Shown: positions 2,638-36,174 of the stretch, one piece after another
How positions within the stretch are numbered: the stretch's first letter is position 1
How the letters are laid out: every line of letters begins with the position of its first letter
From: a virus
Length of the DNA: 37,628 bases
Reading direction: 5' to 3' (one strand)
Virus record (IMG/VR): IMGVR_UViG_3300013133_000021
Coordinates: 1-37,628 of that record
Translations under genes and position numbers: made by a program
The notes under the pieces: model-generated
Told to the model about the DNA's origin: nothing
What the model saw: the letters and a program-made list of their open reading frames with translations, nothing else
Database searches by the model: none

Positions 2638-3065
2638 TTCTTCCCCTTCGAAAGTTCTTCTACTATTTTCTTTAATCTCTCTAAAGACGAAAGAGGAATA
2701 ACTAGATCGTCTTTTATATTCAACCGAATAATAGGAATATTTTTTTCTTCTGCACGCTCTATCTCGTTCTTTATTCCTCCACCTTCCCAGCCATTTTTGT
2801 TATGAACAATTAAAAGATCCTGCATTTCTACTATCTTACAATCTACTTCCAAAATTTCGGGTATGATAAGATATTTCATATTGTAAGCAAGACAAATCCA
2901 AGGTTCATATTCAGCCGGAACCCAGATATCCAATTTAGGAATATGACGACGAAGTGTGTTTGCTATAACTATTGCTTCCTTACAATTCTTTTCTGTAATC
3001 TCCCGGGGAGCAGAATCTCCTGTGGATCCTCTTATTGCATGTGACAAATATGCTGTTACTTTCAT
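2634..3065 (-). CDS. Nucleoside 2-deoxyribosyltransferase-like protein, 143 aa
   Basis: Begins KVTAYLSHAIRG at ATG 3065, which overlaps the upstream TGA (ATGA). The fold pattern fits the nucleoside deoxyribosyltransferase / DUF4406-like group: an N-terminal YLSHAIRG strand-loop, a middle VPAEYEP segment, then IPEILEVDCKIVEMQDLLIV, and later GGGIKNEIERAEEKNIPII, where the Glu is in the place of the family nucleophile or base-contact region. Such enzymes exchange or cleave bases of deoxynucleosides or nucleotides. The neighbours are dNTP-cleaving enzymes, which supports a nucleotide-pool role. The exact substrate cannot be read from sequence. Confidence 0.6.
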   Translation of the reverse strand: MKVTAYLSHAIRGSTGDSAPREITEKNCKEAIVIANTLRRHIPKLDIWVPAEYEPWICLAYNMKYLIIPEILEVDCKIVEMQDLLIVHNKNGWEGGGIKNEIERAEEKNIPIIRLNIKDDLVIPLSSLERLKKIVEELSKGKK

Positions 3066-3490
3066 TCTTTGTCCTTTTCTAGAAATGGGTTTGCACAATT
3101 TGGATATTTTCTTATAACTGCGGCTGCTTGCTCATTTAGTCCTGTTATATTCAATCCATCTGGATATTTAAGTGGTCTATCGTCTTCACAATTGTTCATC
3201 AATTGTGAATCCCTAAGAATAAAAAGACAAGCCATTGCTTTAATAAGATGGCAAACACCACTATCAGGATCAATATCTTCTCCCTCCTTAAATGCTTTTA
3301 TATGTCGATCTAAAGCATCAAAATAAACGGAAATTCTACAACCGTCCTTCCGCCAATTCCAAGCTCCATATTTTCTGGCACCTTCCATCATAGCTAATCC
3401 TACTTCGAAAAGAGGGCCGGAAGGGATAAACCACAATGAGGCTTTTTCTATACCAACAGCATCTTTTGGATTAGTGGGTTTGCTTTTCAT
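3062..3490 (-). CDS. dATP/dGTP diphosphohydrolase-like protein (DUF5664 family)
   Basis: Strong family pattern: NPKDAVGIEKASLWFIP at the N-terminus, then MMEGARKYGAWNWRKDGC, then YFDALDRHIKAFKEGEDIDPDSG and HLIKAMACLFILRD. The acidic and His residues in the last two blocks are the expected metal-binding helices of MazG-like all-alpha pyrophosphohydrolases. Relatives act on dGTP or dATP in phages with altered DNA. Here it lies beside a MazG-like enzyme and a radical-SAM protein, so it may lower canonical purine dNTPs, which is inference. Start ATG at 3490. Confidence 0.8.
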   Translation of the reverse strand: MKSKPTNPKDAVGIEKASLWFIPSGPLFEVGLAMMEGARKYGAWNWRKDGCRISVYFDALDRHIKAFKEGEDIDPDSGVCHLIKAMACLFILRDSQLMNNCEDDRPLKYPDGLNITGLNEQAAAVIRKYPNCANPFLEKDKE

Positions 3491-3515: not shown

Positions 3516-4379
3516 TTACTTCTTCTTAGGCTTTAAAATAATTTTACTCATCAAACAAGTATTGTTTTGTTGGCAATATCTAGAATCAAATTTATAATCT
3601 TTTTGATATTTTAAATTAATAACATCATAAGGGCATTGGATAATTTTTCCACCAATAAAATAATTTGCAAACTTGCACTTATTGTGTGGAAGAGATTGTG
3701 TACTTTCAAACACACCCCTTTTAGAAATATGAATTTCCATATCCCCTTCATATTCATTTAAAAATTGATGAACCAACTTCTTATACTCTAAAACAGGCAT
3801 TGTAAGATTAGTATCATCAAAAAATTCCTGATTTGGGTTGTCTAATTCCCGAATGGAGGAAATGAAAAATACTTTGCATCTATATACTGCTTCACAAATA
3901 TTTGCTACACTCAAAAGAGTTTCTAACTTTGTTTCCTTACCAACCATAAAATTTGCATCAAAAGAATGTTTAACTTTTGAATGGTCTGGAAGACTTAAAA
4001 CACCTTTTAAGCCTTTAAACCCATAAATAGAAACTCTTAATTTTGCTCCGTGTAAATCCATTTTTGTTTTTAAACCCAATCCATTTGTATATATTGTTGT
4101 TTTTAAAGCAAGAAATGAATTTAAAGCAAGCATTCTCTGCAATTTTGGATGAAGAAAAGGTTCTCCTCCAAGAATATTTATTTGCTTTACTCCTTTATAT
4201 ATAGCCTGAGAAAGTGCAGAAACATATTCCTCAAAAGACATAAAACCTTCTTCCCCTTCTGAAACGTTTCTTACAAAACAGCCTGGACATCTAAGATTAC
4301 AAGCTTTTGTAATAAATACTTGCAGGGTATTTCTTTTGGAAAGAGGCAATTCTTTATATTTATCCCATGGAAATTTCAT
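3516..4379 (-). CDS. Radical SAM enzyme with C-terminal cysteine (twitch/SPASM-like) region
   Basis: 287 residues. The N-terminal TKACNLRCPGC holds the CxxxCxxC site for the [4Fe-4S] cluster (C27, C31, C34), and INILGGEPFLHP (GGEP at 71-74) binds SAM. Four more cysteines near the C-terminus (235, 249, 269, 275), including HNKCKF and IIQCPYDV, suggest an auxiliary cluster domain. QueE, the radical-SAM step of 7-deazaguanine synthesis, is usually shorter and lacks such a tail, so this may be a QueE replacement, a base-modifying enzyme or something unrelated. Overlaps the MazG-like gene by 20 bases. Confidence 0.8.
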   Translation of the reverse strand: MKFPWDKYKELPLSKRNTLQVFITKACNLRCPGCFVRNVSEGEEGFMSFEEYVSALSQAIYKGVKQINILGGEPFLHPKLQRMLALNSFLALKTTIYTNGLGLKTKMDLHGAKLRVSIYGFKGLKGVLSLPDHSKVKHSFDANFMVGKETKLETLLSVANICEAVYRCKVFFISSIRELDNPNQEFFDDTNLTMPVLEYKKLVHQFLNEYEGDMEIHISKRGVFESTQSLPHNKCKFANYFIGGKIIQCPYDVINLKYQKDYKFDSRYCQQNNTCLMSKIILKPKKK

Positions 4380-4785
4380 CGTCTTTTCCTGTTACTTTAT
4401 CTACTTCTTTTTGTTCTTTATCTTTGTTCTTATTTAAGGCAGTTTCATTTGTAAAACCATCTGGATGTCTAGCCCTAAGTTTTGTCATATTTAGTCGAAT
4501 TAAATCTTCTAAATTTATTTCAAAAACATTCATAGCATCAGTTAAATACCAAAGAATGTCTCCTAATTCATCTAGAAAGTTAATCTTTGGAATTTTAGCT
4601 TCAAAAAACTTTATTTTTTTCATTAGTCCAGCAAGTTCGCCAGATTCTGAACATAAGCCGGTAATGGCATGATCCAATCGTGTTCTAATATCTTTATCTT
4701 TTGTACCCTCTAGATTGTACACAAAATCGCGGTATTTCTGAAAGTTTGGATCCTGTTCTTTAGGTAGATTGTAGATTTGTTCCAT
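4360..4785 (-). CDS. MazG-like nucleotide pyrophosphohydrolase, 141 aa
   Basis: Family motif GLCSESGELAGLMKKI followed by FLDELGDILWYLTDAM gives the paired acidic helices that hold magnesium in MazG-type enzymes. LNMTKLRARHPDGF is the usual C-terminal hallmark. The last 30 residues are a charged, probably disordered tail. The reaction is dNTP (or NTP) to NMP plus pyrophosphate. It is the second such enzyme in this short cluster. Start ATG at 4785, directly after the upstream stop. Confidence 0.85.
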   Translation of the reverse strand: MEQIYNLPKEQDPNFQKYRDFVYNLEGTKDKDIRTRLDHAITGLCSESGELAGLMKKIKFFEAKIPKINFLDELGDILWYLTDAMNVFEINLEDLIRLNMTKLRARHPDGFTNETALNKNKDKEQKEVDKVTGKDDEISMG

Positions 4786-5397: not shown

Positions 5398-6303
5398 TTA
5401 ATAATTAGAAGTTATTGTTAGATGAAAATTTCTTGGACAGTCTTTTCGTTTAGTCCATAAATACGTATCTATCTGCTCACAAGTACATTCTGCTTTTTCT
5501 GCTAACATCGAACAAACAACTATAGAAGCTGCTCTGATTTCTATCTCTTCTAAACTACCTTCCTGAATAAGAATGCTGTTCTGAATTTTCTGTTTTAATT
5601 CTGGACAATATTCAATACATCCAAAGTATTCTAACATCTTTGGTATTTGATAATCTGCCGGAATAGGTAATTTACCAATTTCCTTCTTAAAAAGCCCAGC
5701 CCCTCTATACCCTTGATATATCCATAGTATGGCTCTCTTTAAGAAAAGATCTTCTGCAAATCCAGGAATATTAGTAAGAAGAACTTCTAACCAATCTCCA
5801 ATCGAGCGAAGTTGTGTATCCATACCATCATTAGTCATTAGATAATATGTAAAAAATTCTGACTCTATAATTTGTTCCAAATGTTTTATTCTCTTGTCTA
5901 AAAGAGGAAATTGATTAAAAATTAAACTGTTTCTAAAGTTAATTATAATCTCCTTTGTTCTTTGTTGTGTGGAAAAAATCCTTTTTTCTTCCAACTCTTT
6001 TATATGCAAAAAAGAGTTGTTTAAGCATTCATACATTTTAATAGAACTAGAATCGTTTGGCCTTAAATCTGATCTTCCATACCAATAACAATAGTTTACA
6101 GAATTTGCTATGAGTTCATACAAAAGTATCTCCTGATTACTTTTAATAAATGGGGGGACCGGCCAAGTACTCTCTCGAGTAGTTTTAAGATAATTGCTTA
6201 CTCGTCTACCCAGTGTATCTACAATTTCTTTATTTATTCTAACATATTTTAAATCAGAACAAACCTGACTGGCTAAGTTCCAAACATTTTCTATCAGATT
6301 CAT
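5398..6303 (-). CDS. Queuosine-salvage protein homologue (QNG1 / DUF2419), 301 aa
   Basis: Start ATG 6303 has a strong GGAGGTTATAAA site. Residue blocks match the queuosine 5'-monophosphate N-glycosidase family (human QNG1): ANSVNYCYWYGRSDLRP near 67-82, FLKRAILW near 187-194, PADYQIPKMLEYFG near 215-228, EEIEIRAASI near 252-261, IDTYLW at 278-283 and a C-terminal FHLTITSNY. Family members release the 7-deazaguanine base queuine from its nucleotide and have a helix-hairpin-helix-like glycosylase fold. In a phage with DpdA and QueC/QueD, it could supply or remove deazaguanine bases. The phage substrate is not known. Confidence 0.85.
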   Translation of the reverse strand: MNLIENVWNLASQVCSDLKYVRINKEIVDTLGRRVSNYLKTTRESTWPVPPFIKSNQEILLYELIANSVNYCYWYGRSDLRPNDSSSIKMYECLNNSFLHIKELEEKRIFSTQQRTKEIIINFRNSLIFNQFPLLDKRIKHLEQIIESEFFTYYLMTNDGMDTQLRSIGDWLEVLLTNIPGFAEDLFLKRAILWIYQGYRGAGLFKKEIGKLPIPADYQIPKMLEYFGCIEYCPELKQKIQNSILIQEGSLEEIEIRAASIVVCSMLAEKAECTCEQIDTYLWTKRKDCPRNFHLTITSNY

Positions 6304-6393
6304 TTTATAACCTCCAAAAATAAACAATTTTATTATCTATAAATACTTTATGTTTAGATTTTTTACAATGTTCTTCGGCTTCATGTATTCCAT

Positions 6394-7707: not shown

Positions 7708-10700
7708 TTACATCTGAGACCTTTTAAAAATATTCTTGTATTTTGATGCGAGATCCTGTTTTAGAACTTCGTCGACCTTCTTATCCCTTTCTTCTGACTT
7801 TCCCTTTAAAGAACCCGGATCTACCCACCATAAACCGTCTAGCTTATCTTTTTTTGTACCGACTTCGAAAGCTTTTTTCATTATTTCAACATTTGGGGGT
7901 GTTTTACATTCTTTTATTGCTTGTTCAACTGATACTACCACAGCATCAGAACAATCTTTACTTCCCTCTACAACTATATCTCTAGTATTTCCGTCATCTA
8001 AAAATTCTATAACGGGCACTTCCTTGGGATGATCTATTTTATTTGTACTGGAATCTTCTTCTAAATTTGTTAGTTCAAAATGAAGATAAGGATGTTTATG
8101 GCATATCCATCTTCCTTCTTTAACAAGATCATCTCTAAAACTTCTATAGAATTGAGGATTCTTATCTATAGATAGATATTCACATTTAATTCCTGCTTTT
8201 TCTAGTATTTGGGTATTATCCGTACTTAATAGTTTTAAATCAAAAGTAGCAAGTTGAATATTAAATCCATAAATCTTTTTCAAATCAATAATAAATTTTC
8301 TAACTTTCGACAGATCTACTTCATCATTCTCAGGAGCTTTTATTCTCATAACAAAATCAGTTTCTACTACTGAAACTTTATCTACTACAACATTTCCATC
8401 TTCAAGAGTTCTCGTTATCTCCTTCCATCCCGAAATTCCAGACATTGCCAATCCATAAGAATCATGAGCAAAAGCTATATCCCCATGAATATATCTGGGG
8501 ATATATCTGGGAACACGAATCTTATTTATATCTAGGAAATGAATTAATTCTTTTTCCTTTTCTTTCACTCCAAGGTATATAGTAATAATCTTCACCGGAT
8601 CTTGTTTGTTGGAATTATAGCAATCTAATAAATATTTTTCTGATTTGAACAATTTATTTTTTCTCAAATAGCTAGAAGATATGCCAGCAAAGTTTCTTAG
8701 CGCTACTACTATATCTTCTTCAAATGCTCGTCTAAATTGTTCTGGAACATGAATAACTGTAAAGCCATTGGCAATAGATTCTCTTACTTCTTCTTCTGAA
8801 TTTAGAATTTTGGAAGGTGAATATATATCTCCAACTTGAACTGGAAACTTTTCGCAGTTATGAAACTCTTCTTCTTTCGCTTCCCATATCGGAACATCTA
8901 CTATATGAACTTCTTTATTACCTTTTTTCTTTGCGATGAAAGCATTTAAAAATGATAAATTTTCTTGTTTGGAAGCAACAATGAAAAATTTACCTAAAGT
9001 TTGTCCGTGAATAACAAATCTGTTCTCGAACCTTTGTAACGCGGATTCTACAGAAGCTACAACTTTTTCTCTTTGTTTGAGCCCAGCTTTTAGAGAATCT
9101 ACCTCGTCCATTAGAGCAGCTATTACATCTTGCCCAACTTCTGCTTGTGCATTGGGGGATGCGAGAACATATTCAAAAAGAGGAAAATGTATAGTCTGGG
9201 TTTCAATAATGTTCCCAGAAATTCTTCCCTTTTCCCTAAACCATTCGGAAGAGAGAAGATGATTTTGAAGAATTCTAAACCCTTTAGTTTCCCCCAAAGT
9301 TTTATTCAGGTTGAAGAAGACAATAGCCATTTTTCCCCCGCCCGTCTTTCCTCCATAATATGACCAAGGATCTCGAAGACAGAGATGCAGATACATGCAG
9401 TATGCTATACCAATTATGGCCGCACGTGACTTTCCCGTATTATGCACAAATACACCTGCTGTTAGTGCAAAGTTATGATATTTCTCTATGGATAAATCAT
9501 AGACTTCTTCTGGTGTATTTAATCTTCTAACACTAATTACTTTATGGTTGAGAAGACATTCTATCATTATAGCTTTCTTCTTTTCAAATTTGGTTTTGCT
9601 TGACTTCTTTCCTCCCGCAGCTATTTTATCATTTGTTTGTTTTGTAAGTCCACTATTCCAAGCACGTTTGCCTCTTCTTGACTTTCCACTACATTGATAA
9701 GAACAGAATTTTTTCTTACTTTTGATTGTGCATTCAAAAATAATATTACATTCGGGAAGTTTACACTTTCGCAGTTCCATGGGCAACTTATTCCACGCAT
9801 GTTTCCCATACATTCCATTCTTTTTTCCTTTGTGAGAACATTTTTCTGGATGGCATTTGGGACAGTTACAATCTGATCTGTGTTCTTGATTTTGATAAAA
9901 ATCACGCATTTTCTCGGAATAATTTTTAGAAGATTCTGGTTTTGACCATCGAATCCGACTAGCTCGACTTGCTTGTCCTGTCTCTTTATTTCTTTTTCTT
10001 AGACGATCTGATTCTTTTTTTCTCTTAGCTTCTACGTCTCCTGTAGACCATCGAGTTTCTGTAGCTTTCTTTGCTTGTCCTCTTTCTCGGTTCCTTTTCT
10101 TTAGTCTTTGAGATGCTTGTTTTCTTTGTTCTTTGTTATTGGGTCCTTCCCATCGTTTTTTGTTGGATTTTCTAGCAGCTTTTGCAGCGAATCCCGGAAT
10201 ATTCTTAAATGGATTTAAAACATTTGCGTGTAGATGTCTATGTTCCTTAACTGTTAGAAGTTGTAAATTCTCTGGAGAATTATTGGTTTTGTCTACATTT
10301 TTATGATGAATACAGAATCCTTCGGGTGTCGGTCCATTTATCTCCTCTGAAACAATATGAAATGTTGGTTCCCATTGTTGTTTGTAAATACCAGAAAGTT
10401 CATATCCTAATTCGCTCACGTATCGATATAGTGGCATTAAACTATCCCCGGGCTGAAGATCCTGAGCTTCTTTATATTTTCCAGAAGTTAGTAAGAACGG
10501 ATGATTATGCGTACAATGAATCTTTTCTTTATTATCTAATTCGACTTCCACTATATTAGAAACTTGACTACCCGATAACAAAGCATCTATCACTCTCCCA
10601 GGAACCATTCTTTTTCTTTCTGAATCATAGGAGTAGACCCAGTGTTGCTTTCCTTCTTTTCTTTCTTCAATTATTTCTGGAATAGTTAGTTCTCTACCAT

Positions 10701-10977
10701 CGAGAAGACTAATTTTTACCCCGGCGGACAAACAACCAATTGCCCCCGTGAAAACTGGAATATATTTAGTAGGTTCGCTCATCAAAAAAGAAAGTTCTCT
10801 TCTCCAGATAGGAAAGATAGCTTTTCCAGGAACTCCGTCTTTCTTCGTAAGTTTTCCGATAAAACCTTCATTACGAATGAACTCAGAAATAGATACCGGA
10901 ATTTCCTTGTAGTAAAGTTTGGTAGTGGCGGAAGTGAAAGTTGTGAGCCAAGTTTTATCCGGATTTTCCGGGTTCAT
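7708..10977 (-). CDS. terL: Terminase large subunit with in-frame intein, 1089 aa precursor
   Basis: Start chosen at ATG 10977 (GAGG six bases upstream). ATG 10989 lacks a site. Residues 1-81 and 514-1089 are exteins, which after splicing give about 657 residues. The intein interrupts the Walker A loop: GAIG (78-81) plus TGKS (514-517) restores GAIGTGKS. Walker B is VIAALMDEVDS (DE at 624-625). The nuclease half has the expected acidic strands, YIHGDIAFAHD, then LATFDLKL and CSDAVVV, of the RNase-H-like fold. It packages phage DNA into proheads. Upstream is the probable small subunit, downstream the sigma-like factor. Confidence 0.92.
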   Translation of the reverse strand: MNPENPDKTWLTTFTSATTKLYYKEIPVSISEFIRNEGFIGKLTKKDGVPGKAIFPIWRRELSFLMSEPTKYIPVFTGAIGCLSAGVKISLLDGRELTIPEIIEERKEGKQHWVYSYDSERKRMVPGRVIDALLSGSQVSNIVEVELDNKEKIHCTHNHPFLLTSGKYKEAQDLQPGDSLMPLYRYVSELGYELSGIYKQQWEPTFHIVSEEINGPTPEGFCIHHKNVDKTNNSPENLQLLTVKEHRHLHANVLNPFKNIPGFAAKAARKSNKKRWEGPNNKEQRKQASQRLKKRNRERGQAKKATETRWSTGDVEAKRKKESDRLRKRNKETGQASRASRIRWSKPESSKNYSEKMRDFYQNQEHRSDCNCPKCHPEKCSHKGKKNGMYGKHAWNKLPMELRKCKLPECNIIFECTIKSKKKFCSYQCSGKSRRGKRAWNSGLTKQTNDKIAAGGKKSSKTKFEKKKAIMIECLLNHKVISVRRLNTPEEVYDLSIEKYHNFALTAGVFVHNTGKSRAAIIGIAYCMYLHLCLRDPWSYYGGKTGGGKMAIVFFNLNKTLGETKGFRILQNHLLSSEWFREKGRISGNIIETQTIHFPLFEYVLASPNAQAEVGQDVIAALMDEVDSLKAGLKQREKVVASVESALQRFENRFVIHGQTLGKFFIVASKQENLSFLNAFIAKKKGNKEVHIVDVPIWEAKEEEFHNCEKFPVQVGDIYSPSKILNSEEEVRESIANGFTVIHVPEQFRRAFEEDIVVALRNFAGISSSYLRKNKLFKSEKYLLDCYNSNKQDPVKIITIYLGVKEKEKELIHFLDINKIRVPRYIPRYIHGDIAFAHDSYGLAMSGISGWKEITRTLEDGNVVVDKVSVVETDFVMRIKAPENDEVDLSKVRKFIIDLKKIYGFNIQLATFDLKLLSTDNTQILEKAGIKCEYLSIDKNPQFYRSFRDDLVKEGRWICHKHPYLHFELTNLEEDSSTNKIDHPKEVPVIEFLDDGNTRDIVVEGSKDCSDAVVVSVEQAIKECKTPPNVEIMKKAFEVGTKKDKLDGLWWVDPGSLKGKSEERDKKVDEVLKQDLASKYKNIFKRSQM
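9439..10734 (-). mobile_element. Intein with HNH endonuclease in terL Walker A
   Basis: 432 residues. Splicing block A is CLSAGVKISLLDG (first residue Cys). Block B is CTHNHPFLLTSGKYKEAQDL followed by QPGD. Blocks F and G are VYDLSIEKYHNFALTAGVFV followed by HN, with Thr as the +1 residue. The homing part has an HNH centre, IHHKNVDKTNNSPENLQLLT, then EHRHLHA. Arg/Lys-rich repeated segments (RKRNKETGQASRASRIRW type) and Cys clusters (CNCPKCHPEKCSH; later C..C...C..C) follow, and a NUMOD3-like GKKNGMYGKHAW. All key residues are present, so it looks active. Confidence 0.9.
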
Positions 10978-11617
10978 CAATCGCCTCATTTATTTTAGAT
11001 TCGACAAAGTGTTTGATTTCGGTAATTTTAGATTCGTCCAAATTCTCTAGTTTTTCTAACATTCTTTTTTCTGCAGGAGGAAGCAAATTAGGTTCGAGGC
11101 TCGGACTGGTATTTGTGACAGGTTTTGTAGGTGTGTCAGAAGTATTTGTTATAATACCCATTATTGCCAGAAATTTTCCTATCTGTTCATCTTCTTTTCT
11201 CATACTAGTAACAATTTTTATTACTTGGGCATCGTTGACATTGTCTACCATTTCTACTTCACAATGTTGTTCACATTTTTTACATTTATACCAAGTAGAA
11301 TTTTCATAAGTATGTTCTGCTACCGGGGCATAACAACATACAGATCTTAATTCTTTTTTCTTTAAGAGTTCATTCAATCTATCCTCGAGGATAACTAAAC
11401 GTTGTTCCCTTCCTGAGAGTATTGCATCAGTAACAAAACAAGCTATTTCAAAACTTGTATCGTGTTGAAATCCCCGCCTAATCTTTTTAGTTACTTTTTT
11501 TATGTATTCTTCGTCAAGACCGGTTTCTTTAATAATCGCATTAATATCTCCGCGGTATTTAAAGAATAGACGACGAATTTTTTCGTGTAACTGAAATTTA
11601 GTTATTTCTGTTGACAT
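10955..11617 (-). CDS. Probable terminase small subunit, 220 aa
   Basis: Placed immediately upstream of terL and overlapping its start. Residues 1-50 (LHEKIRRLFFKYRGDINAII, then KETGLDEEYIKKVTKKIRRG) look like a helix-turn-helix DNA-binding domain. The middle has VCCYAP and CKKCEQHC, a likely zinc ribbon. The C-terminal third is helical and charged after a Thr/Pro-rich linker. TerS sequences diverge widely, so the call rests on position, size and the HTH. The zinc motif is not usual for TerS. Confidence 0.6.
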   Translation of the reverse strand: MSTEITKFQLHEKIRRLFFKYRGDINAIIKETGLDEEYIKKVTKKIRRGFQHDTSFEIACFVTDAILSGREQRLVILEDRLNELLKKKELRSVCCYAPVAEHTYENSTWYKCKKCEQHCEVEMVDNVNDAQVIKIVTSMRKEDEQIGKFLAIMGIITNTSDTPTKPVTNTSPSLEPNLLPPAEKRMLEKLENLDESKITEIKHFVESKINEAIDEPGKSG

Positions 11618-12475: not shown

Positions 12476-12895
12476 TTATAATCTCCTTTGAATACTGTCA
12501 TCTATATAAGTGGCAACATTGCCAGAACTTTCTTGAACCTCTACTTTGTAGCAACGGGGGATTTGAAAACAAATCCATCTTGCGATATTTTCTGCAGTAG
12601 GATTTAGAGGACTGTGGAAAATTACGCTTGCTGAATCATCGTCTGTGGGTACAATTTCAAATCCAATTCCTTCAATTTCATTTAGATCTTTGTGGTCTAA
12701 AATATCGGCTATTTTCTTTTTTATTTCAGAGAAATCAACGACCATTCCGTTATTTTTATCTACTACATCATCTCCTGCTCTGGCATAAACAGAAATAATC
12801 CAGTTATGGCCGTGAGGATTCTTACATTTACTCTCATAAGGAAGATTTAAGTGATGTGCCCCAGATATTTCAAATGTCTTTTTTATTTCAAACAT
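12476..12895 (-). CDS. queD: QueD-like 6-pyruvoyl-tetrahydropterin / carboxy-tetrahydropterin synthase
   Basis: 139 residues, normal for the family. The zinc and catalytic residues are visible: GAHHLNL (His 14 and 15), CKNPHGHNW (catalytic Cys 24, His 28, His 30), GMVVDFSEIKK, LDHKDLNEI and a C-terminal VEVQESSGN with the conserved Glu. QueD makes 6-carboxy-tetrahydropterin, the second step of preQ0 synthesis from GTP. It overlaps the QueC-like gene upstream by 13 bases, so the two are one unit. No folE-like gene is in the window, so the first step may be left to the host. Confidence 0.9.
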   Translation of the reverse strand: MFEIKKTFEISGAHHLNLPYESKCKNPHGHNWIISVYARAGDDVVDKNNGMVVDFSEIKKKIADILDHKDLNEIEGIGFEIVPTDDDSASVIFHSPLNPTAENIARWICFQIPRCYKVEVQESSGNVATYIDDSIQRRL

Positions 12896-13518
12896 TTATG
12901 TTCCTTTCTGTAACATAATTCTTGCCTCGCCATTTCTATATGTATACAGGGATGGCATTTTGTACATGCTATAATTTTTCCTCTTTTATCCTTTTTCGGA
13001 TGTTCACATGTCCAGAAGCAATTTCCCGGAATTTCTTCTTCCTGAAACTCTTTCAAAACTTCCCACTTTTCTTTAAATGAAAAGGGAAAAATTAATTTTG
13101 AATTAGCAAAATCCCCCAAATACTGATAATCAGCAAAAACTTTGTAAAAATTATCCACGGCCAACCAGATACAATCTCCCTGTACATACCCAAAATAAAC
13201 ATCGCAATCTTTGGATATATATGGCAGAATAAAAGTAAACCAACTCTTTTGTTGTGGCCAGCAGGGGGCAGGGTTAATATCTGCTTTTACTTTTATAATA
13301 TGATGATTTATGTAGAATCCCAAAGTTTTTGCAAATTTTAAATAGTTTTCTCGAGCTTCTTTTTCTTTTACTGTTTTCAACTTCTCTACAAAATAAACAT
13401 CAAATGAAAAAGCTTCTACTGGATTTTCTTTTGATGATTCCTTGGCCAATGTATGTAACAAAAGAGTAGAATCTAAACCACCAGACCAAACAATTAGTTT
13501 TTTACATTTTTTAGACAT
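12883..13518 (-). CDS. QueC-like PP-loop ATPase, divergent paralogue, 211 aa
   Basis: N-terminal IVWSGGLDSTLLLHT is the PP-loop (SGGLDST at 12-18) that adenylates a carboxylate in QueC. The C-terminal CEHPKKDKRGKIIACTKCHP followed by CIHI supplies four cysteines for zinc, as in QueC. The middle differs from normal QueC (NPAPCWPQQKSWFTFILPYI instead of the PGRN-type loop), so the substrate may differ. A second, more typical QueC is encoded at 34429-35085. ATG 13518 is preferred over TTG 13524, which overlaps the upstream stop. Confidence 0.75.
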   Translation of the reverse strand: MSKKCKKLIVWSGGLDSTLLLHTLAKESSKENPVEAFSFDVYFVEKLKTVKEKEARENYLKFAKTLGFYINHHIIKVKADINPAPCWPQQKSWFTFILPYISKDCDVYFGYVQGDCIWLAVDNFYKVFADYQYLGDFANSKLIFPFSFKEKWEVLKEFQEEEIPGNCFWTCEHPKKDKRGKIIACTKCHPCIHIEMARQELCYRKEHKCLK

Positions 13519-13520
13519 CC

Positions 13521-13682
13521 TCAACTCTTCTCTTTCTCATAATATCCTCTCAATATCATAGCCACAATAAATAGAGCTGGAACTATGTCTGTAGATATTC
13601 CATAAGAATATCTACGTGCAGACAAAGTTTCTTTGAATTGGTAGTAATCTTCTGTTATTTTTTTAACTGTTTTTTCATCCAT
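13521..13682 (-). CDS. Hypothetical protein, 53 aa
   Basis: ATG 13682, stop TGA 13521-13523, filling the space between the phosphoribosyltransferase and the QueC-like gene and overlapping the former by 8 bases. It begins DEKTVKKITEDYYQFKETL and has a hydrophobic stretch (IVPALFIVAMIL) that could be a membrane helix or a buried core. Family unknown. Confidence 0.55.
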   Translation of the reverse strand: MDEKTVKKITEDYYQFKETLSARRYSYGISTDIVPALFIVAMILRGYYEKEKS

Positions 13683-14232
13683 TTTTAATTTCCTCTGGTT
13701 CTAATACAAATAAACCATTTAAGTTTCTATAATGTTCTCCTTTTCCCATTCCACTTCCAACTAGAAATCCAGAATCTTGAAATTCAAATCCTACTATATC
13801 TGGCAGATCTCCTGGTTCTTTCCATAATTTTATTCTTGGATTCATTTTTCTAACCAATACTGCGGTTCTAAGAGAATTATATCTACCTATTTCATTTATT
13901 ATACTTTTTGCAAACATCATAGTTAACCCGGAATCAAAAACATCATCAATAAGTATGATATTTTTTTCTTTCAGATCTCCTCTAGTAAGATCCAATGGGT
14001 AAGTAACTTTGATCTTTTCCTGGGTTTCTGTTCCATTATTGTAAGAGGAAAGTCCCAAATATCCTACTAATATATCTGGATTGGGAAAATAGTCTAACAA
14101 TCGTTGAGAAGTAAATATGCCTCCTTTGAGAATGGAAATAAAGCATAGATTGTCTGTAGAAAAATTTCTGATTCTCCGGTATATCTGATCTATAGTAAGA
14201 GTAACTTGATATGAATTTAGTATCTGCTTCAT
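13675..14232 (-). CDS. Hypoxanthine-phosphoribosyltransferase-like protein, 185 aa
   Basis: The start at ATG 14232 overlaps the upstream TGA (ATGA) and has GAGAGGATAGT before it. The PRPP-binding signature NIILIDDVFDSGLTMMF is intact. The N-terminal SILKGGIFTSQRLLDYF and LGLSSYNNGTE match the pyrophosphate loop and hood of type I PRTases. The C-terminal PDIVGFEFQDSGFLVGSGMG and YRNLNGLFVLE match the HGPRT end. It joins a purine base to PRPP. Next to QueC-like/QueD genes it could act on guanine or a deazapurine, which is inference. Confidence 0.85.
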   Translation of the reverse strand: MKQILNSYQVTLTIDQIYRRIRNFSTDNLCFISILKGGIFTSQRLLDYFPNPDILVGYLGLSSYNNGTETQEKIKVTYPLDLTRGDLKEKNIILIDDVFDSGLTMMFAKSIINEIGRYNSLRTAVLVRKMNPRIKLWKEPGDLPDIVGFEFQDSGFLVGSGMGKGEHYRNLNGLFVLEPEEIKNG

Positions 14233-14891
14233 ACTATCCTCTCTACTATACTGATACCATCTATTTTCTTTATCAAATGGCAAGTATCTTTTTCTGATCT
14301 ACAAGAAACCTCGGCTAACTGTTTTTCATGGGTGATATATAGAAACTGTAAGTGAAGTTCATCAGATATATCCTGCATAAGTTGAGCTAAGAAAGGAAGT
14401 GTTTCTTTCGCTAAACAACGAAATGGTTCGTCTAAAAAAATTGTATTCCTTGGTCGGGGATCCATAATTGCCCAGGATACTATTCTAGCGGCAAAAGAAA
14501 TCATATCAATAATAGCTCCGCCTTTTTCATCTTTAGGCGAATATCTAATACCATTTTCCACGACAAACATTTCCGTTTCTGGTTGATTTCTAAAGAATCT
14601 ACTTTCAAGCTCAAAGGAATATTCCTCTCCAAAAACTGCTTGAAGAGCTTGGGTAATTAAAGATTCAAAGATCTTTTTTGTATTATCCTGAGCAAGAATT
14701 CCCGTAGCACTTACTATTTCTCTGGCTTCTTTTAGGATAGTAATATCTGATTCTAATTCAGATATTTCTAAGATACAGTTATTCTTTTCTTCTACAAGAA
14801 TCTTCTTGGTAGATTTTATATCAGAAACAAATTCTTTGTATTTAGTTAGATTCATTAGGTTGTTATTCTTATCTGCTTTCTTTTCTCTCAT
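14229..14891 (-). CDS. SbcC/Rad50-type ATPase, C-terminal half, 220 aa
   Basis: Starts with a coiled coil (STKKILVEEKNNCILEISEL), then a globular part with GGAIIDMISFAARIV in the place of the ABC signature helix, Walker B NTIFLDEPFRCLA (DE), and a following LQFLYITHEKQLAEVS with the H-loop His. There is no Walker A, so it cannot bind ATP alone in the normal way. The missing N-terminal half is encoded at 17642-18727. Together they would make one SbcC/Rad50 ATPase head pair acting with SbcD (15731-16687) in DNA end processing. Confidence 0.75.
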   Translation of the reverse strand: MREKKADKNNNLMNLTKYKEFVSDIKSTKKILVEEKNNCILEISELESDITILKEAREIVSATGILAQDNTKKIFESLITQALQAVFGEEYSFELESRFFRNQPETEMFVVENGIRYSPKDEKGGAIIDMISFAARIVSWAIMDPRPRNTIFLDEPFRCLAKETLPFLAQLMQDISDELHLQFLYITHEKQLAEVSCRSEKDTCHLIKKIDGISIVERIV

Positions 14892-23350: not shown

Positions 23351-23362
23351 ATTATACTGTTT
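23351..23362 (-). promoter_or_regulatory. AAACAGTATAAT-type promoter, copy 2
   Basis: Identical 12 bases to copies 1 and 3, here overlapping the last codons and stop of the clamp-loader gene and 36 bases before the SSB start. It would let the abundant SSB and the recombination genes be transcribed separately from the clamp loader. Confidence 0.55.
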
Positions 23363-25529
23363 TATTTCCCAAACAAACTTGCATAAGCAAAGAAACTAAT
23401 ACATTTTTCCCCCCATAAAAAGTACTGTATGATAAGATCTGCATAGTACGAGATATATCTTCAGCATATCCTGTATCTTTATCTTCTATTTTCATAAGTT
23501 GTTTTCGAAGAAATGTTAGAATGCCAGTTCTGATTTGTTCAGGTTCTTGTTGTAATTTTTCCACTTCTGCAAGTACTTTCTTCCATTCATTTCTCCTCTT
23601 CTCCGGGAGCATTAGAAGTAACTTGCACAAATGAATAAAGTCTCCACCTTCTTGAATATTAATCTCAGAAGCAATAGCCTCTGCGATCTCATCAAGATCT
23701 GTCATTCCAATTATCTTTTCCAACATTACTAAAGCAGATCTGGGAGTCCTTTCACAATTGCTGGCAATAACTTCCAGTATGGAGGAATCAACAGTTAGAT
23801 TTTTTATTTTACATGCCCGTTCCAGAATAGTTATAATATCTCTAGATTTTAGTTGTTCCACTTTATATTCTGTACATCTGTTTCGTAAAGTTGGAAGTAT
23901 CTTTTCTGGATCTGTTGTACATAAAATGAAGTATACATGTTTAGGAGTATCCTCTGTTTCCTTTAGTAAAGCCTGCTGTGCATCGCGGGTAATTTGGTGA
24001 CAGTTGCTAACAAGAATTGGAATTGAGGAATTGCTCCAAGCTTTTCCTCTTGACTGTGCCAAAACAAAATAATTGTGGGTACCCTCAATTTCTATATTAT
24101 ATACATATTGGTTTCCTCTGGATTTAAAGTTTCTTTTTCGATTTTTCTTTCTTCCAGATTTTGATCTTGGTGTGGTTATAACTTCTACATAACTATTATT
24201 GGCAAAAGATTCAATTTTAGCTCTACAAGAGAGAGAATCTTCAACTACTTCTTTTGCATTTAGTATAAGGATATCAAAACCAAGTTTTTTATATCCTTCC
24301 TCTATATCTTTCCAGTTTTCTTTATGCCAATATTCTAAATCCATCACTTCTATAAACTTGTTTGCAGAAAGAATTTTACCATTTTCATCTCTTTTTCGAA
24401 CAACAAAATCTGGATTTTTATGGTGGTTTTTTCCTTTGATTTTTAAAGTCAGAAAGAAAGAACCATTCCCCACATATTCCACATTTGGAATTCCCATAGA
24501 TATAATACCTTTTTCGGGACGATTTGGAATATTCTTATACTTTGGAGCATTTACAAATCGTTTTATTTGCTCTTCTTTAACAGAAGAGGGAAGATTTTCC
24601 CATCTTTTTTTCATAGCTTTTCTTAGCTTTTTAAGTCCAGCCGAATTGTTCCGAAATAAGGGATTATTCTTTCCTCGATGGGATAAACTCAATTTCTCTC
24701 GGTTTTTTCTTCCCCCCTCTGTTTTTTCAAATTTTTTTCTTGCTTCAGATATTGTTTGGCTTATAACTTGTTTTTTATTCTTGGATATCTCATGAATTAG
24801 AATTTCATGAGGTCGAACATGATCAAAATATTTTCTACAATACTTACATATACCACTTCGTTTACCTACAAAAGATCTTTTTTTCTCTTTCTGAAAGAAG
24901 GTAAATTCTCCATCATATTTTATAAGTTTATCCCCCGGAGCAAGATTTTCTGCTTCTATATATCCTTTTCCAATCACATAAAATTTATGATTTTTTGTTG
25001 AATAGATCCAATATTCTTTTTCACCATCTCTAATAAACGTTTTTACTAATTTTTCTGATATTTTTCTTTTTATCTTTCTAATGATTTTCTTCTTTATTAT
25101 TTTCTTCTGTTCAATATCATAACTTAAAATTTCTTGAATTTTTTGAGAGTTAAAGATATTTTCTATAGTAGTACATTTATTATAATCAGTTAATACTCTG
25201 GTTTGTCCTGGAAAACACTCATCCAGAATATAACTTACAGATCCTCCCCCAAAGGGAACAAAATTGAGATCTGAAATGATATCTCTAACCGTTTCAATTC
25301 CCCTAACGTTTGCTGTATTAAGTTCCCGGATGTTGTCTCCGTTGGTACCAAAAGTAGAAGCAAGGATATGAGCAAGAGTAGTTTTGCCACATCCTTTTGG
25401 ACCACTTAAAAGAATAGTATGGGGACGATCTTTCGGGGCTCGCTTAGAGAGAAGTTCCAGAGCTTTGACTGTAGATCTGTTTCCTACTACTTCAGAAAAT
25501 TTAGTTGGTCTGATTTCTTGATAAAGCAT
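23352..25529 (-). CDS. Clamp loader AAA+ subunit with in-frame intein, 725 aa precursor
   Basis: Exteins are residues 1-104 and 510-725, giving about 320 residues after splicing, like DnaX/RFC-type or T4 gp44 loaders. Walker A is LLSGPKGCGKTTLAHI (43-51). Walker B is YILDE, cut by the intein directly after DE and continued by CHQITRDAQQALLKETEDTP. Sensor 1 is YFILCTTDPEKI, the arginine finger LRNRCTEY, and sensor 2 the ERTPRSALVMLEK region. It loads the sliding-clamp-like protein encoded at 32316-33353 for the phage polymerase. Confidence 0.9.
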   Translation of the reverse strand: MLYQEIRPTKFSEVVGNRSTVKALELLSKRAPKDRPHTILLSGPKGCGKTTLAHILASTFGTNGDNIRELNTANVRGIETVRDIISDLNFVPFGGGSVSYILDECFPGQTRVLTDYNKCTTIENIFNSQKIQEILSYDIEQKKIIKKKIIRKIKRKISEKLVKTFIRDGEKEYWIYSTKNHKFYVIGKGYIEAENLAPGDKLIKYDGEFTFFQKEKKRSFVGKRSGICKYCRKYFDHVRPHEILIHEISKNKKQVISQTISEARKKFEKTEGGRKNREKLSLSHRGKNNPLFRNNSAGLKKLRKAMKKRWENLPSSVKEEQIKRFVNAPKYKNIPNRPEKGIISMGIPNVEYVGNGSFFLTLKIKGKNHHKNPDFVVRKRDENGKILSANKFIEVMDLEYWHKENWKDIEEGYKKLGFDILILNAKEVVEDSLSCRAKIESFANNSYVEVITTPRSKSGRKKNRKRNFKSRGNQYVYNIEIEGTHNYFVLAQSRGKAWSNSSIPILVSNCHQITRDAQQALLKETEDTPKHVYFILCTTDPEKILPTLRNRCTEYKVEQLKSRDIITILERACKIKNLTVDSSILEVIASNCERTPRSALVMLEKIIGMTDLDEIAEAIASEINIQEGGDFIHLCKLLLMLPEKRRNEWKKVLAEVEKLQQEPEQIRTGILTFLRKQLMKIEDKDTGYAEDISRTMQILSYSTFYGGKNVLVSLLMQVCLGNKTV
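24003..25217 (-). mobile_element. Intein with Vsr-like (EDxHD-type) endonuclease in clamp loader Walker B
   Basis: 405 residues. Block A is CFPGQTRVLTDY, block B STKNHKFYVIGKGYIEAENL then APGD, and block F VYNIEIEGTHNYFVLA. The end ILVSN is followed by Cys +1, and the penultimate residue is Ser rather than the usual His. The endonuclease part is not HNH or LAGLIDADG. HHKNPDFVV, then KFIEVMDLEYWHKE and LGFDILILNAKEV, follow the PDF / IE-x / YWH order of Vsr-like homing nucleases. A NUMOD3-like HRGKNNPLF and a CKYC...H zinc group precede it. Confidence 0.85.
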
Positions 25530-33369: not shown

Positions 33370-34410
33370 TTAAAAAAATCTTTTCTGAATAGAAAGTTTC
33401 TTTACTGGAACACTCCTCATAAATTCTCCCACATCTACAAAGTATGCTATATTCGCATCCCATCTTCGTTCCCAAGATTCTTCAAGATCTTCCAGTTTGA
33501 ATCCTTTCATCTCAAGATAGTATAAAACTTGTTTAATTACTTCTTCTGGGAAAATCTTGGTAAAATGAGGATTCCCGGGGTTATACTTTGATTTGGTAGA
33601 AAGGGTTAGCGAGAGAGGAGTTTTACTATAATCTAGAGTTTTTCCATCCTTCTTAAATTTTGGAACATAAATTCCACCATACGCCGCATGCTTGATCCAG
33701 GTCGTCGAATCGCAACTATTCCACGCATAACGAAGCATTAGATCTACGGAAGTAATAGCAAAGCCATGGGTTCTAATCTTCTGTTTTGAATTTTGTATTA
33801 GGGAAAATATTGGATCTCCATGCTCCAAGACAAATCTATTTTTTGTTACATCTTGACCCAGACCACCAATGCCAATATACTCATAATTATCCATATACTT
33901 CTTCAGCCATTTGATATCTTCTCCAAAGTGATAAACTGGCATGGGTTTTAGACCATAGGATTCAAGAAGTTTTTGATTATCCCAAGTTCTTTCCGGGTTG
34001 AAGATAACATCTATATTTACATATACGTCAAGCTGGTTCTTATATTTGTTAACAAACTCTACATACCTTTTAATAAAATTCTTAACTTCCTGAGTATCGT
34101 AGTAAGACCAGTCTGCTATAGATCGGAAATCTTGTTTCTGAATTACCCTGGTATTATCTTGATTATTTTTACCATCCTCTCTCTTTTTCTGCCCCAGTTT
34201 AATAGCATTAGTAACTAAAGAATATGCTCCTGAATCTAGTAGAATTTTAATTTCTGGATGAGCACTTAAAAGTTTAGTTACTTTATTTTCGTTATAGAAA
34301 GTTTCGAGAGAGAAGATTTTTCCCTCATAAATGAGAGGAAATCTACTTTCAATCCCTTTTTTCGATCCGTTGGTTAACAGATTAGCCAGATGTATTTTCT
34401 GTACACTCAT
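33370..34410 (-). CDS. dpdA: DpdA-like 7-deazaguanine DNA transglycosylase, 346 aa
   Basis: Relative of tRNA-guanine transglycosylase. LLDSGAYS (D59) and YVNIDVIFNP (D134) fit the base-binding acidic residues. IGIGGLG (180-185) and HGFAIT (215-220) line the barrel. SCDSTTW (D234) is at the place of the nucleophilic Asp. The zinc cysteines of bacterial TGT are not seen. In phages DpdA exchanges guanine in DNA for preQ0 or a related base. QueC is the adjacent upstream gene. No ribosome site precedes the ATG, but TATAAT ends six bases before it. Confidence 0.85.
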   Translation of the reverse strand: MSVQKIHLANLLTNGSKKGIESRFPLIYEGKIFSLETFYNENKVTKLLSAHPEIKILLDSGAYSLVTNAIKLGQKKREDGKNNQDNTRVIQKQDFRSIADWSYYDTQEVKNFIKRYVEFVNKYKNQLDVYVNIDVIFNPERTWDNQKLLESYGLKPMPVYHFGEDIKWLKKYMDNYEYIGIGGLGQDVTKNRFVLEHGDPIFSLIQNSKQKIRTHGFAITSVDLMLRYAWNSCDSTTWIKHAAYGGIYVPKFKKDGKTLDYSKTPLSLTLSTKSKYNPGNPHFTKIFPEEVIKQVLYYLEMKGFKLEDLEESWERRWDANIAYFVDVGEFMRSVPVKKLSIQKRFF

Positions 34411-34428: not shown

Positions 34429-35085
34429 TTAGGTTTCAATCGTCCGGAATATATGAAAAATTCTATCCTTTTCCACACAGTTAGAGCACTGGCCGCATTC
34501 AGTAGGACCACCTCTAAAACAACTCCAAGTATCTTCTTTTCCAAATCCCTCTTGGACTAGTTCCCAATAAACCTGCTCTTTGCTCATGGTATTTTCTTGT
34601 CCTTCTGCAAGTATGGGAATGATTTGAACTTGGCGTTTATTTTCCGTAGTATAAGACCATACAGCTTCCAGCAACTTTGCAAAGGGTACTGTACTGTCAT
34701 AGAAGCTATGATTCTTGTTTGGAATTTTTGAATGGCCTTTACTTCCGGTAACTATAATATCTGCTCCGATGGTATCGGCATAAGCAATAATGGTTCCAAG
34801 AAGGGCGAGATTTCTACAGGGAGTATAAACGTCTTGATTCTCTTTACTTTCCCCGGAAATCATACCACCAGAATCCCATAGATAGTTTATCTGAATTACT
34901 TTAAGACGTTCTATCTCAAGTTGGCGGGCTATGTTAATAGCATATTTGTATTCTTGTTCTTTGCAGATTTGGTTGTAGTCTACAAAAATCCCGTAGAATT
35001 CTGCATCGGGCCAGCGACGCTTTGCGTATATGACTGCGAGAGTACTATCTGCTCCACCACTGATTGTCAGTAAGATTTTTTGCAT
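34429..35085 (-). CDS. queC: QueC, 7-cyano-7-deazaguanine synthase, 218 aa
   Basis: ILLTISGGADSTLAVIYAKR holds the PP-loop (SGGADS, 9-14). YTPCRNLALLGTIIAYADTI and IVTGSKGHSKIPNKNHSFYD keep the QueC core. The end WSCFRGGPTECGQCSNC gives the four zinc cysteines. QueC turns 7-carboxy-7-deazaguanine into preQ0 with ATP and ammonia. Directly followed by dpdA, so product and user are co-expressed. SD AAGGAAACTAAG upstream of ATG 35085. Confidence 0.9.
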   Translation of the reverse strand: MQKILLTISGGADSTLAVIYAKRRWPDAEFYGIFVDYNQICKEQEYKYAINIARQLEIERLKVIQINYLWDSGGMISGESKENQDVYTPCRNLALLGTIIAYADTIGADIIVTGSKGHSKIPNKNHSFYDSTVPFAKLLEAVWSYTTENKRQVQIIPILAEGQENTMSKEQVYWELVQEGFGKEDTWSCFRGGPTECGQCSNCVEKDRIFHIFRTIET

Positions 35086-35220: not shown

Positions 35221-36174
35221 TTACAACTCTCCATCCAACATCATCCTAATCAACTCATAGTATCTTGGTTCCCTATAATTAAACATAGAAACCTGAAAAT
35301 AATCTGTCATATATGCCTCGTTGAAGTATATCTCTGCATTAATCCTCTTAAACTTCTCTACCCACTCTTTTGGATTCTCCACTTTAATGGTTAGAACTGG
35401 AGCAACCTTTTCCCCAATAAACTGAATCTTATCAGAGTGTAACGCTTGACAATTTCTCTCTATCTGTTCTCTACTAATAGGATTGTCCAAAGCTTTATTT
35501 AAACTAAGAAACTGTGGGATTAAAGAAGTATGAGGAGTCTGATTTACTTCATCATACTTCATATAATTTCTTATACTCAGATAATCTCCGGTATCTATGA
35601 AGTATTTTTCTGCTTTAGAATCGTATAGAACGATACCAAGAACTGGTAACCCACCAAGTATTTTTGAAGAGGATAAGATTATTATATTCGCTTCAATAGG
35701 AAGCGGGTAGAAACCAAAACCACTAATGCAATCTACAATTTTCAGTTCATACTGAGCAAGAGAAGGGGGGGCAATAAAAGTAAACTGGCTGCTGCTGGTT
35801 TCAAATTGAACATAATAAAAGAATGATTTTCCTGGAGTAGATTTTTCTTCTTCAGATAAGAAAAGTTGTTTTGCTATCTTTTCTGCTCGTGCACAAAAAG
35901 TTCCCCCATTCTCAAAGAATCTTGAAGTTAAGTCTCTGGATAAACTTCTAAGGACAGTTTCAATAGCACTCGTTCCACTTCCTTGAGTGAATAGAATATT
36001 ATATCTATCTGGTATGTTAAACCTTTCTCGAAGTTTCTTCTTAGTATCTGCATATAGTTCTTGAAACTCCTTACTTCGATGGCTAAAAGTAATATCTACT
36101 CGAAACGATTGGGGAATCGGTCCAGGACTATATAATTTCTTTTCCGGCAGAATATCTAAGTATTTTTTTAACAT
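35221..36174 (-). CDS. Class-V-type PLP-dependent aminotransferase-like enzyme, 317 aa
   Basis: Begins like alanine-glyoxylate/serine aminotransferases: LYSPGPIPQSF, TFSHRSKEFQELY, ILFTQGSGTSAIETVLRSL. IVDCISGFGFYPLPI supplies the Asp over the PLP ring. IIILSSSKILGGLPVLGIVL has the likely Schiff-base Lys (SSSK). NQTPHTSLIPQFLSLNKALD is the typical C-terminal block. It is shorter than the usual 360-400 residues. The amino acceptor is unknown. Placed upstream of queC and dpdA, it could act on a deazapurine side chain. The ribosome site GGAG sits in a small hairpin (ATTAC-CGGA-GTAAT). Confidence 0.8.
   Translation of the reverse strand: MLKKYLDILPEKKLYSPGPIPQSFRVDITFSHRSKEFQELYADTKKKLRERFNIPDRYNILFTQGSGTSAIETVLRSLSRDLTSRFFENGGTFCARAEKIAKQLFLSEEEKSTPGKSFFYYVQFETSSSQFTFIAPPSLAQYELKIVDCISGFGFYPLPIEANIIILSSSKILGGLPVLGIVLYDSKAEKYFIDTGDYLSIRNYMKYDEVNQTPHTSLIPQFLSLNKALDNPISREQIERNCQALHSDKIQFIGEKVAPVLTIKVENPKEWVEKFKRINAEIYFNEAYMTDYFQVSMFNYREPRYYELIRMMLDGEL

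Follow-up and report, generated by a model that had tools for sequence, protein, structure and literature searches.

The open reading frame at positions 5398-6303 of the window, the whole 37,628-nucleotide stretch of uncultured-virus DNA analyzed here (IMG/VR record IMGVR_UViG_3300013133_000021), encodes a QNG1/DUF2419 protein, and the assignment is far beyond chance. The protein belongs to a divergent, virus-specific branch of the family and, as judged from its sequence and predicted structure, most likely works as a QNG1-type N-glycosidase. In cells, QNG1 is known for making queuine from degraded tRNA available for reuse. The family itself was already known; what appears to be new is that it has a virus-specific branch and that this branch is linked to DpdA and preQ0 genes. 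No report of a viral QNG1 or of this link was found in the literature searched, in which subscription papers are under-represented.

The gene had been placed correctly in an earlier note on this DNA, and the strand, which that note did not state, was found to be minus (Table 1). A TTG located 24 nt upstream of the ATG is a possible start but is not needed. PF10343 (Q_salvage) was the sole Pfam family in the 301-aa reading frame, scoring 78 bits where 25 bits is the cut-off (E=1.1e-21, residues 55-289). Among PDB chains, the credible phmmer matches were exclusively QNG1, namely that of Sphaerobacter thermophilus (7uk3/7u07, E=4e-10) and that of human (7ugk, E=1.8e-6). With a profile of nine viral homologues, these values reached 1.6e-21 and 1.2e-15, respectively. 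Searches of PHROGs and NCBIfam with the window protein yielded no significant match and no match, respectively.

The AlphaFold2 model, computed with a 38-sequence viral alignment as input, had a pLDDT of 92.6 and a pTM of 0.91. When the model was compared with the PDB by Foldseek, all 11 matches at E<=0.001 were QNG1 chains, both bacterial and human, with TMq values of 0.68-0.77; no significant match was obtained in BFVD. The family identity proposed in the earlier note was thus borne out by the Pfam match and by the QNG1-only structure matches, and the structural comparison it suggested with bacterial and human QNG1 was significant for these proteins and for nothing else. The same note had named a missing DUF2419 match or the loss of active-site residues as grounds for giving up the assignment; the match was present and the residues were retained.

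Four active-site positions could be checked, and all were kept in the window protein. The Lys of FYKRAQ, changed in structure 7u5a (K199C), aligns with K189 (FLKRA), and the Asp of FADYKVP, changed in structure 7ulc (D231N), aligns with D217 (PADYQIP). D298 and W302 of Sphaerobacter QNG1, named as active-site residues (PMC11592518), align with D279 and W283. Across the 38 viral sequences, K189, D217 and D279 were invariant, while position 283 was either W or F.

The window protein therefore has its fold, the Q_salvage profile and the residues K189/D217/D279/W283 in common with cellular QNG1 (Sphaerobacter thermophilus 7U07/7U91, human C9orf64 7UGK), but it is of viral origin and only about 20% identical. 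The viral branch also lacks the insert preceding the FxKRA motif of cellular QNG1, and the segment after the conserved Trp (W74), WYGxSxIRP (Y-G-x-S-x-I-R-P), is unlike its cellular counterpart, so the viral substrate may differ. In their short form and their C-terminal FHLTxTxxY, the viral proteins resemble a "queuosine salvage family protein" encoded on plasmids of Azospira and Variovorax. These homologues differ from the viral branch in being only 25% identical and in their location on bacterial plasmids, and the genes listed around them include none for deazaguanine.

Scans of IMG/VR yielded 40 loci with a viral QNG1, one of them identical to the window and the others mostly at 26-45% identity; several of the contigs were 200-550 kb in size. 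Neither the viral query nor the Sphaerobacter query matched anything in 50,697 phage records, and the viral branch was not found in PHROGs, the BFVD structure library or the literature searched. No cellular-type QNG1 was found on viral contigs with a single-sequence query. In a 42-row tree, a very long branch parted the viral sequences from the two cellular ones, the cellular sampling being thin.

Among 84,980 species genomes, one match to viral QNG1 was obtained, on a 179 kb contig (JAHQJS010000001.1) binned in an Asgard MAG (Borrarchaeum). Replication and packaging-type genes of the window have homologues on this contig in colinear order, and the contig is therefore viral. A host origin of the QNG1 gene was rejected, as no species genome other than this one had the viral type, and the contig bearing it there is colinear with the window. 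The contig (L042, L082-L090) represents a window-related virus, which either infects Asgard archaea or was binned in error. The other ten Q_salvage matches in 195 genomes of Borrarchaeum's phylum belonged to a distinct, Cys-rich family; these archaeal proteins (L153-L162) match Q_salvage weakly, carry a C-terminal cysteine cluster and are possibly an iron-sulphur relative of QNG1.

Table 1. Positions of QNG1 and of the deazaguanine and nucleotide genes in the window.
Feature	Coordinates	Strand	Evidence
Viral QNG1 (Q_salvage, PF10343)	5398..6303	-	301 aa; Pfam, phmmer, AlphaFold2 and Foldseek
Shine-Dalgarno GGAGG	6311..6315	-	7 nt ahead of QNG1 ATG at 6303
DpdA (7-deazaguanine DNA base-exchange enzyme, TGT superfamily)	33370..34410	-	phrog_887 E=7e-47
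QueC (preQ0 synthase), adjoins dpdA	34429..35085	-	PF06508 E=8e-23; phrog_1550 E=4e-26
QueD (6-carboxytetrahydropterin synthase family)	12476..12895	-	PF01242 E=8e-25; TIGR03367 E=3e-21, under its cut-off
Second, divergent QueC-like PP-loop protein	12883..13524	-	PF06508 E=3e-7; phrog_1550 E=1.7e-20
HGPRT-like phosphoribosyltransferase	13675..14283	-	PF00156 E=1e-12; TIGR01203 E=1e-22; PDB 3o7m E=1e-15
MazG nucleotide pyrophosphohydrolase, downstream of QNG1	4360..4785	-	PF03819 E=8e-8; 60% in L009
dATP/dGTP diphosphohydrolase N-terminal-domain protein	3062..3490	-	PF18909 E=1e-24
Class-V aminotransferase-like protein beside QueC/DpdA	35221..36174	-	PF00266 E=6e-7; 57% identity in L043

As shown in Table 1, the window holds several further deazaguanine and nucleotide genes. 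Its DpdA was 29.7% identical to that of phage 9g over 93% (E=2e-28) and 63% identical to that of L043. The second QueC-like protein, located between QueD and the phosphoribosyltransferase, had no match in the relative L009. The class-V aminotransferase-like protein might carry out a further modification of the base. FolE was detected in relatives only, not in the window, and no QueE was identified in the window by profile searches or by comparison with the QueE of L032. A radical SAM protein at 3516-4379 was considered as QueE and rejected, as it fitted only weakly and did not match the L032 protein; it has extra C-terminal cysteines and is 63% identical to a protein of L003 (3895-4755) located near the QNG1 of that virus.

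The window also carries a phage-type DNA polymerase, an SSB and a processivity factor, and is probably a fragment of a larger genome. Most of the window is matched, in the same order and largely at 40-75% identity, by L009 and L043 taken together; these two contigs, both from metagenome 3300017991, probably derive from a single viral genome of about 145 kb. Further relatives are the Borrarchaeum-bin contig and G039. QNG1, DpdA, QueC, QueD and the phosphoribosyltransferase recur in these window-related lineages. FolE is present in the record of L043, in G039 and in the Borrarchaeum-bin contig, where it lies 2.5 kb from QNG1. The presence of a hydrolase and an inserting enzyme in one genome, put forward in the earlier note, was thus confirmed for the window, where QNG1 accompanies DpdA and preQ0 genes, and the combination was repeated in its relatives.

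By synteny, the phosphoribosyltransferase is close to QueD in every lineage of the window family. An HGPRT-like gene beside or near QueD was observed in L009 (4658-5254), L082 (2842-3372) and L081 (19141-19725), as well as in the unrelated G035 (104839-105225). This recurrence suggests that the enzyme is dedicated to the deazaguanine pathway.

Similar gene company was found in unrelated viruses. In L032, QNG1 (8979-9830) is followed after 48 bp by a 462-aa TGT/DpdA-like gene (9878-11266), and QueE (phrog_2076, E=4e-29) lies 3 kb upstream. In L035, QueC is located upstream and ends 1 bp from QNG1. QueC is also directly upstream of QNG1 in L036, where FolE, QueD and a phosphoribosyltransferase lie no more than 9 kb away, and FolE is 2.1 kb from QNG1 in L003. 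A placement test with one value per lineage gave a combined P of about 0.005, a rough figure given truncated contigs, hand-assigned lineages and distances taken from profile-match borders.

The TGT/DpdA-like gene of L032 belongs to a divergent family of 460-470 aa with a DSGGFQ motif and a weak phrog_887 match (L032, G014, G016, G040 and G054). Four QNG1 records contain this family, as does one relative that lacks QNG1, and no match to it was found in the 50,697 phage records. Canonical TGT (PF01702) was absent from the QNG1 viral records, its matches being confined to different contigs in the Borrarchaeum bin.

Over the 42 QNG1 records, clear DpdA was found in three (seven including TGT-like proteins), QueC in 13 and QueD in 15. 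At least one deazaguanine gene was present in about 20 of the 42, and none was detectable in about half; none was detected on the QNG1 contigs G024 (351 kb), G013 (298 kb) and G012 (225 kb). The co-occurrence of DUF2419 with dpdA, for which the earlier note had proposed a survey, held for the window, its relatives and the TGT/DpdA-like gene of L032 but not as a rule, and DpdA was rejected as an obligatory partner on these counts. Since several large QNG1 contigs lack DpdA, TGT and QueC, QNG1 is more than an accessory to DpdA.

Relatives matched by ribonucleotide reductase were also considered. QueD occurred without QNG1 in three of ten such records, so co-occurrence with QueD is not specific among them. 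A specific QueD/QueC association in this phage group was likewise rejected as not significant: among contigs over 80 kb, QueD or QueC was present in 8/8 with QNG1 and in 3/5 without it.

The reading that we prefer, held tentatively at slightly below an even chance, is that the QNG1 N-glycosidase frees a 7-deazaguanine base, which is supplied alongside preQ0 to the virus's DpdA. QNG1 would hydrolyze a 7-deazaguanine nucleoside 5'-monophosphate to the free base, the likeliest candidate substrate being queuosine-5'-monophosphate from degraded host tRNA, or else a related preQ-type nucleotide. The freed base would join preQ0 from FolE/QueD/QueC and could be delivered to DpdA, which would swap it for guanine in viral DNA, and the guanine set free in this exchange could be converted back to GMP by the HGPRT-like enzyme. 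Where DpdA is absent, the acceptor is likely the host TGT. Against this supply of DpdA, a preQ0-making virus has no obvious need of queuine salvage, a deazaguanine gene is missing from about half of the QNG1 records, and the window QNG1 lies 27 kb from dpdA.

A base-supply cycle joining the QNG1 hydrolase and DpdA, as raised in the earlier note, is plausible. A fuller version is unlikely, in which QNG1 strips salvaged nucleotides and thereby sorts the bases, DpdA, or else the new TGT-like family, puts them into DNA, and the HGPRT-like enzyme recycles guanine to GMP; if true, phages would build modified DNA partly from host-tRNA bases.

Compared with the published phage scheme for 7-deazaguanine DNA modification (phage 9g and Vibrio phage nt-1, with DpdA and FolE/QueD/QueE/QueC), the window family has DpdA, QueC and QueD, with FolE in relatives, and in addition a base-releasing hydrolase and a phosphoribosyltransferase. 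With bacterial queuine salvage (QueK, or QNG1 with a queuine-specific TGT), the window system shares a hydrolase that liberates a base for a transglycosylase, but the transglycosylase in the same genome is of the DNA-acting, DpdA type.

A role in translation is a somewhat unlikely alternative, in which QNG1 would free queuine from degraded tRNA, the host TGT would re-modify host and phage tRNAs with GUN anticodons, and DpdA would be incidental. It is consistent with the tRNA genes of QNG1 contigs without TGT, DpdA or QueC: G024 carries 31, including Asn-GUU, Asp-GUC and His-GUG (three of the four Q types), and G013 carries 33, including all four Q-type tRNAs. Two tRNA-Tyr(GUA) genes were found in G012 and several tRNA genes each in L030 and L040. 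However, tRNA genes are common in large phages anyway, none was found near QNG1 in the window or at most QNG1 loci, and the linkage to QueC, QueE, FolE and TGT/DpdA-like genes would be left unexplained. The nucleotide-metabolism neighbors in the window, MazG and the dGTP diphosphohydrolase-like gene, together with a ribonucleotide reductase gene that is next, or nearly next, to QNG1 in group-A phages, would instead fit a house-cleaning function, whereby QNG1 strips the base from modified deoxy-monophosphates (deaza-dGMP) of the virus's own nicked or degraded modified DNA, preventing mis-incorporation and recycling the base. This is quite unlikely, as characterized QNG1 acts on ribonucleotides and QNG1 also occurs in viruses without a detected DNA-modification gene. 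QNG1 substrates have been described as Q and Q-MP (PMC11130926).

Repurposing of QNG1 for hydrolysis of a different nucleotide, such as a host signalling or defence nucleotide, is very doubtful. The depth of the viral branch, with a very long branch between it and cellular QNG1 (few cellular rows), the unlike segment after W74 and the occurrence in viruses without a deazaguanine pathway all favor it, but K189, D217 and D279 stay invariant in 38 diverse viral sequences and the linkage with deazaguanine genes is repeated. Least probable by far is a DNA glycosylase excising the modified base from DNA, an activity that the earlier note had also entertained and that found no support: the significant Foldseek matches of the AlphaFold2 model were QNG1 structures only, with no HhH DNA glycosylase among them, and crystals of StQNG1 reportedly held Q and Q-5'-MP instead of DNA. 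In its favor, DUF2419 has been predicted to be structurally similar to 8-oxoguanine DNA glycosylases (PMC11592518).

If the preferred supply of a freed base to DpdA holds, viral QNG1 would tie the turnover of tRNA during infection to the modification of viral DNA or to tRNA repair, and the branch may show how viruses obtain unusual 7-deazaguanine bases. A 2019 survey of phage 7-deazaguanine DNA modification made no mention of salvage and tabulated 76 DpdA phages without a preQ0 pathway (PMC6884629). The base source of DpdA phages with an incomplete or absent preQ0 pathway is an open point, which becomes testable because a conserved viral branch is recurrently linked to preQ0-synthesis and base-exchange genes.

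Several minor observations were also made. Inteins were present within the putative terminase and clamp-loader genes of the window (7708-10989 and 23352-25529), the terminase-like homologue of L009 being intein-free. The region 28742-31372 encodes a family-A DNA polymerase with an N-terminal uracil-DNA-glycosylase domain. In one group of large phages (L005, L007, L014, L016 and L025), the QNG1 gene precedes one for an AAA ATPase and one for a homologue of a Ro60-type RNA-binding protein, this homologue being profiled in L005 as TROVE plus vWA.
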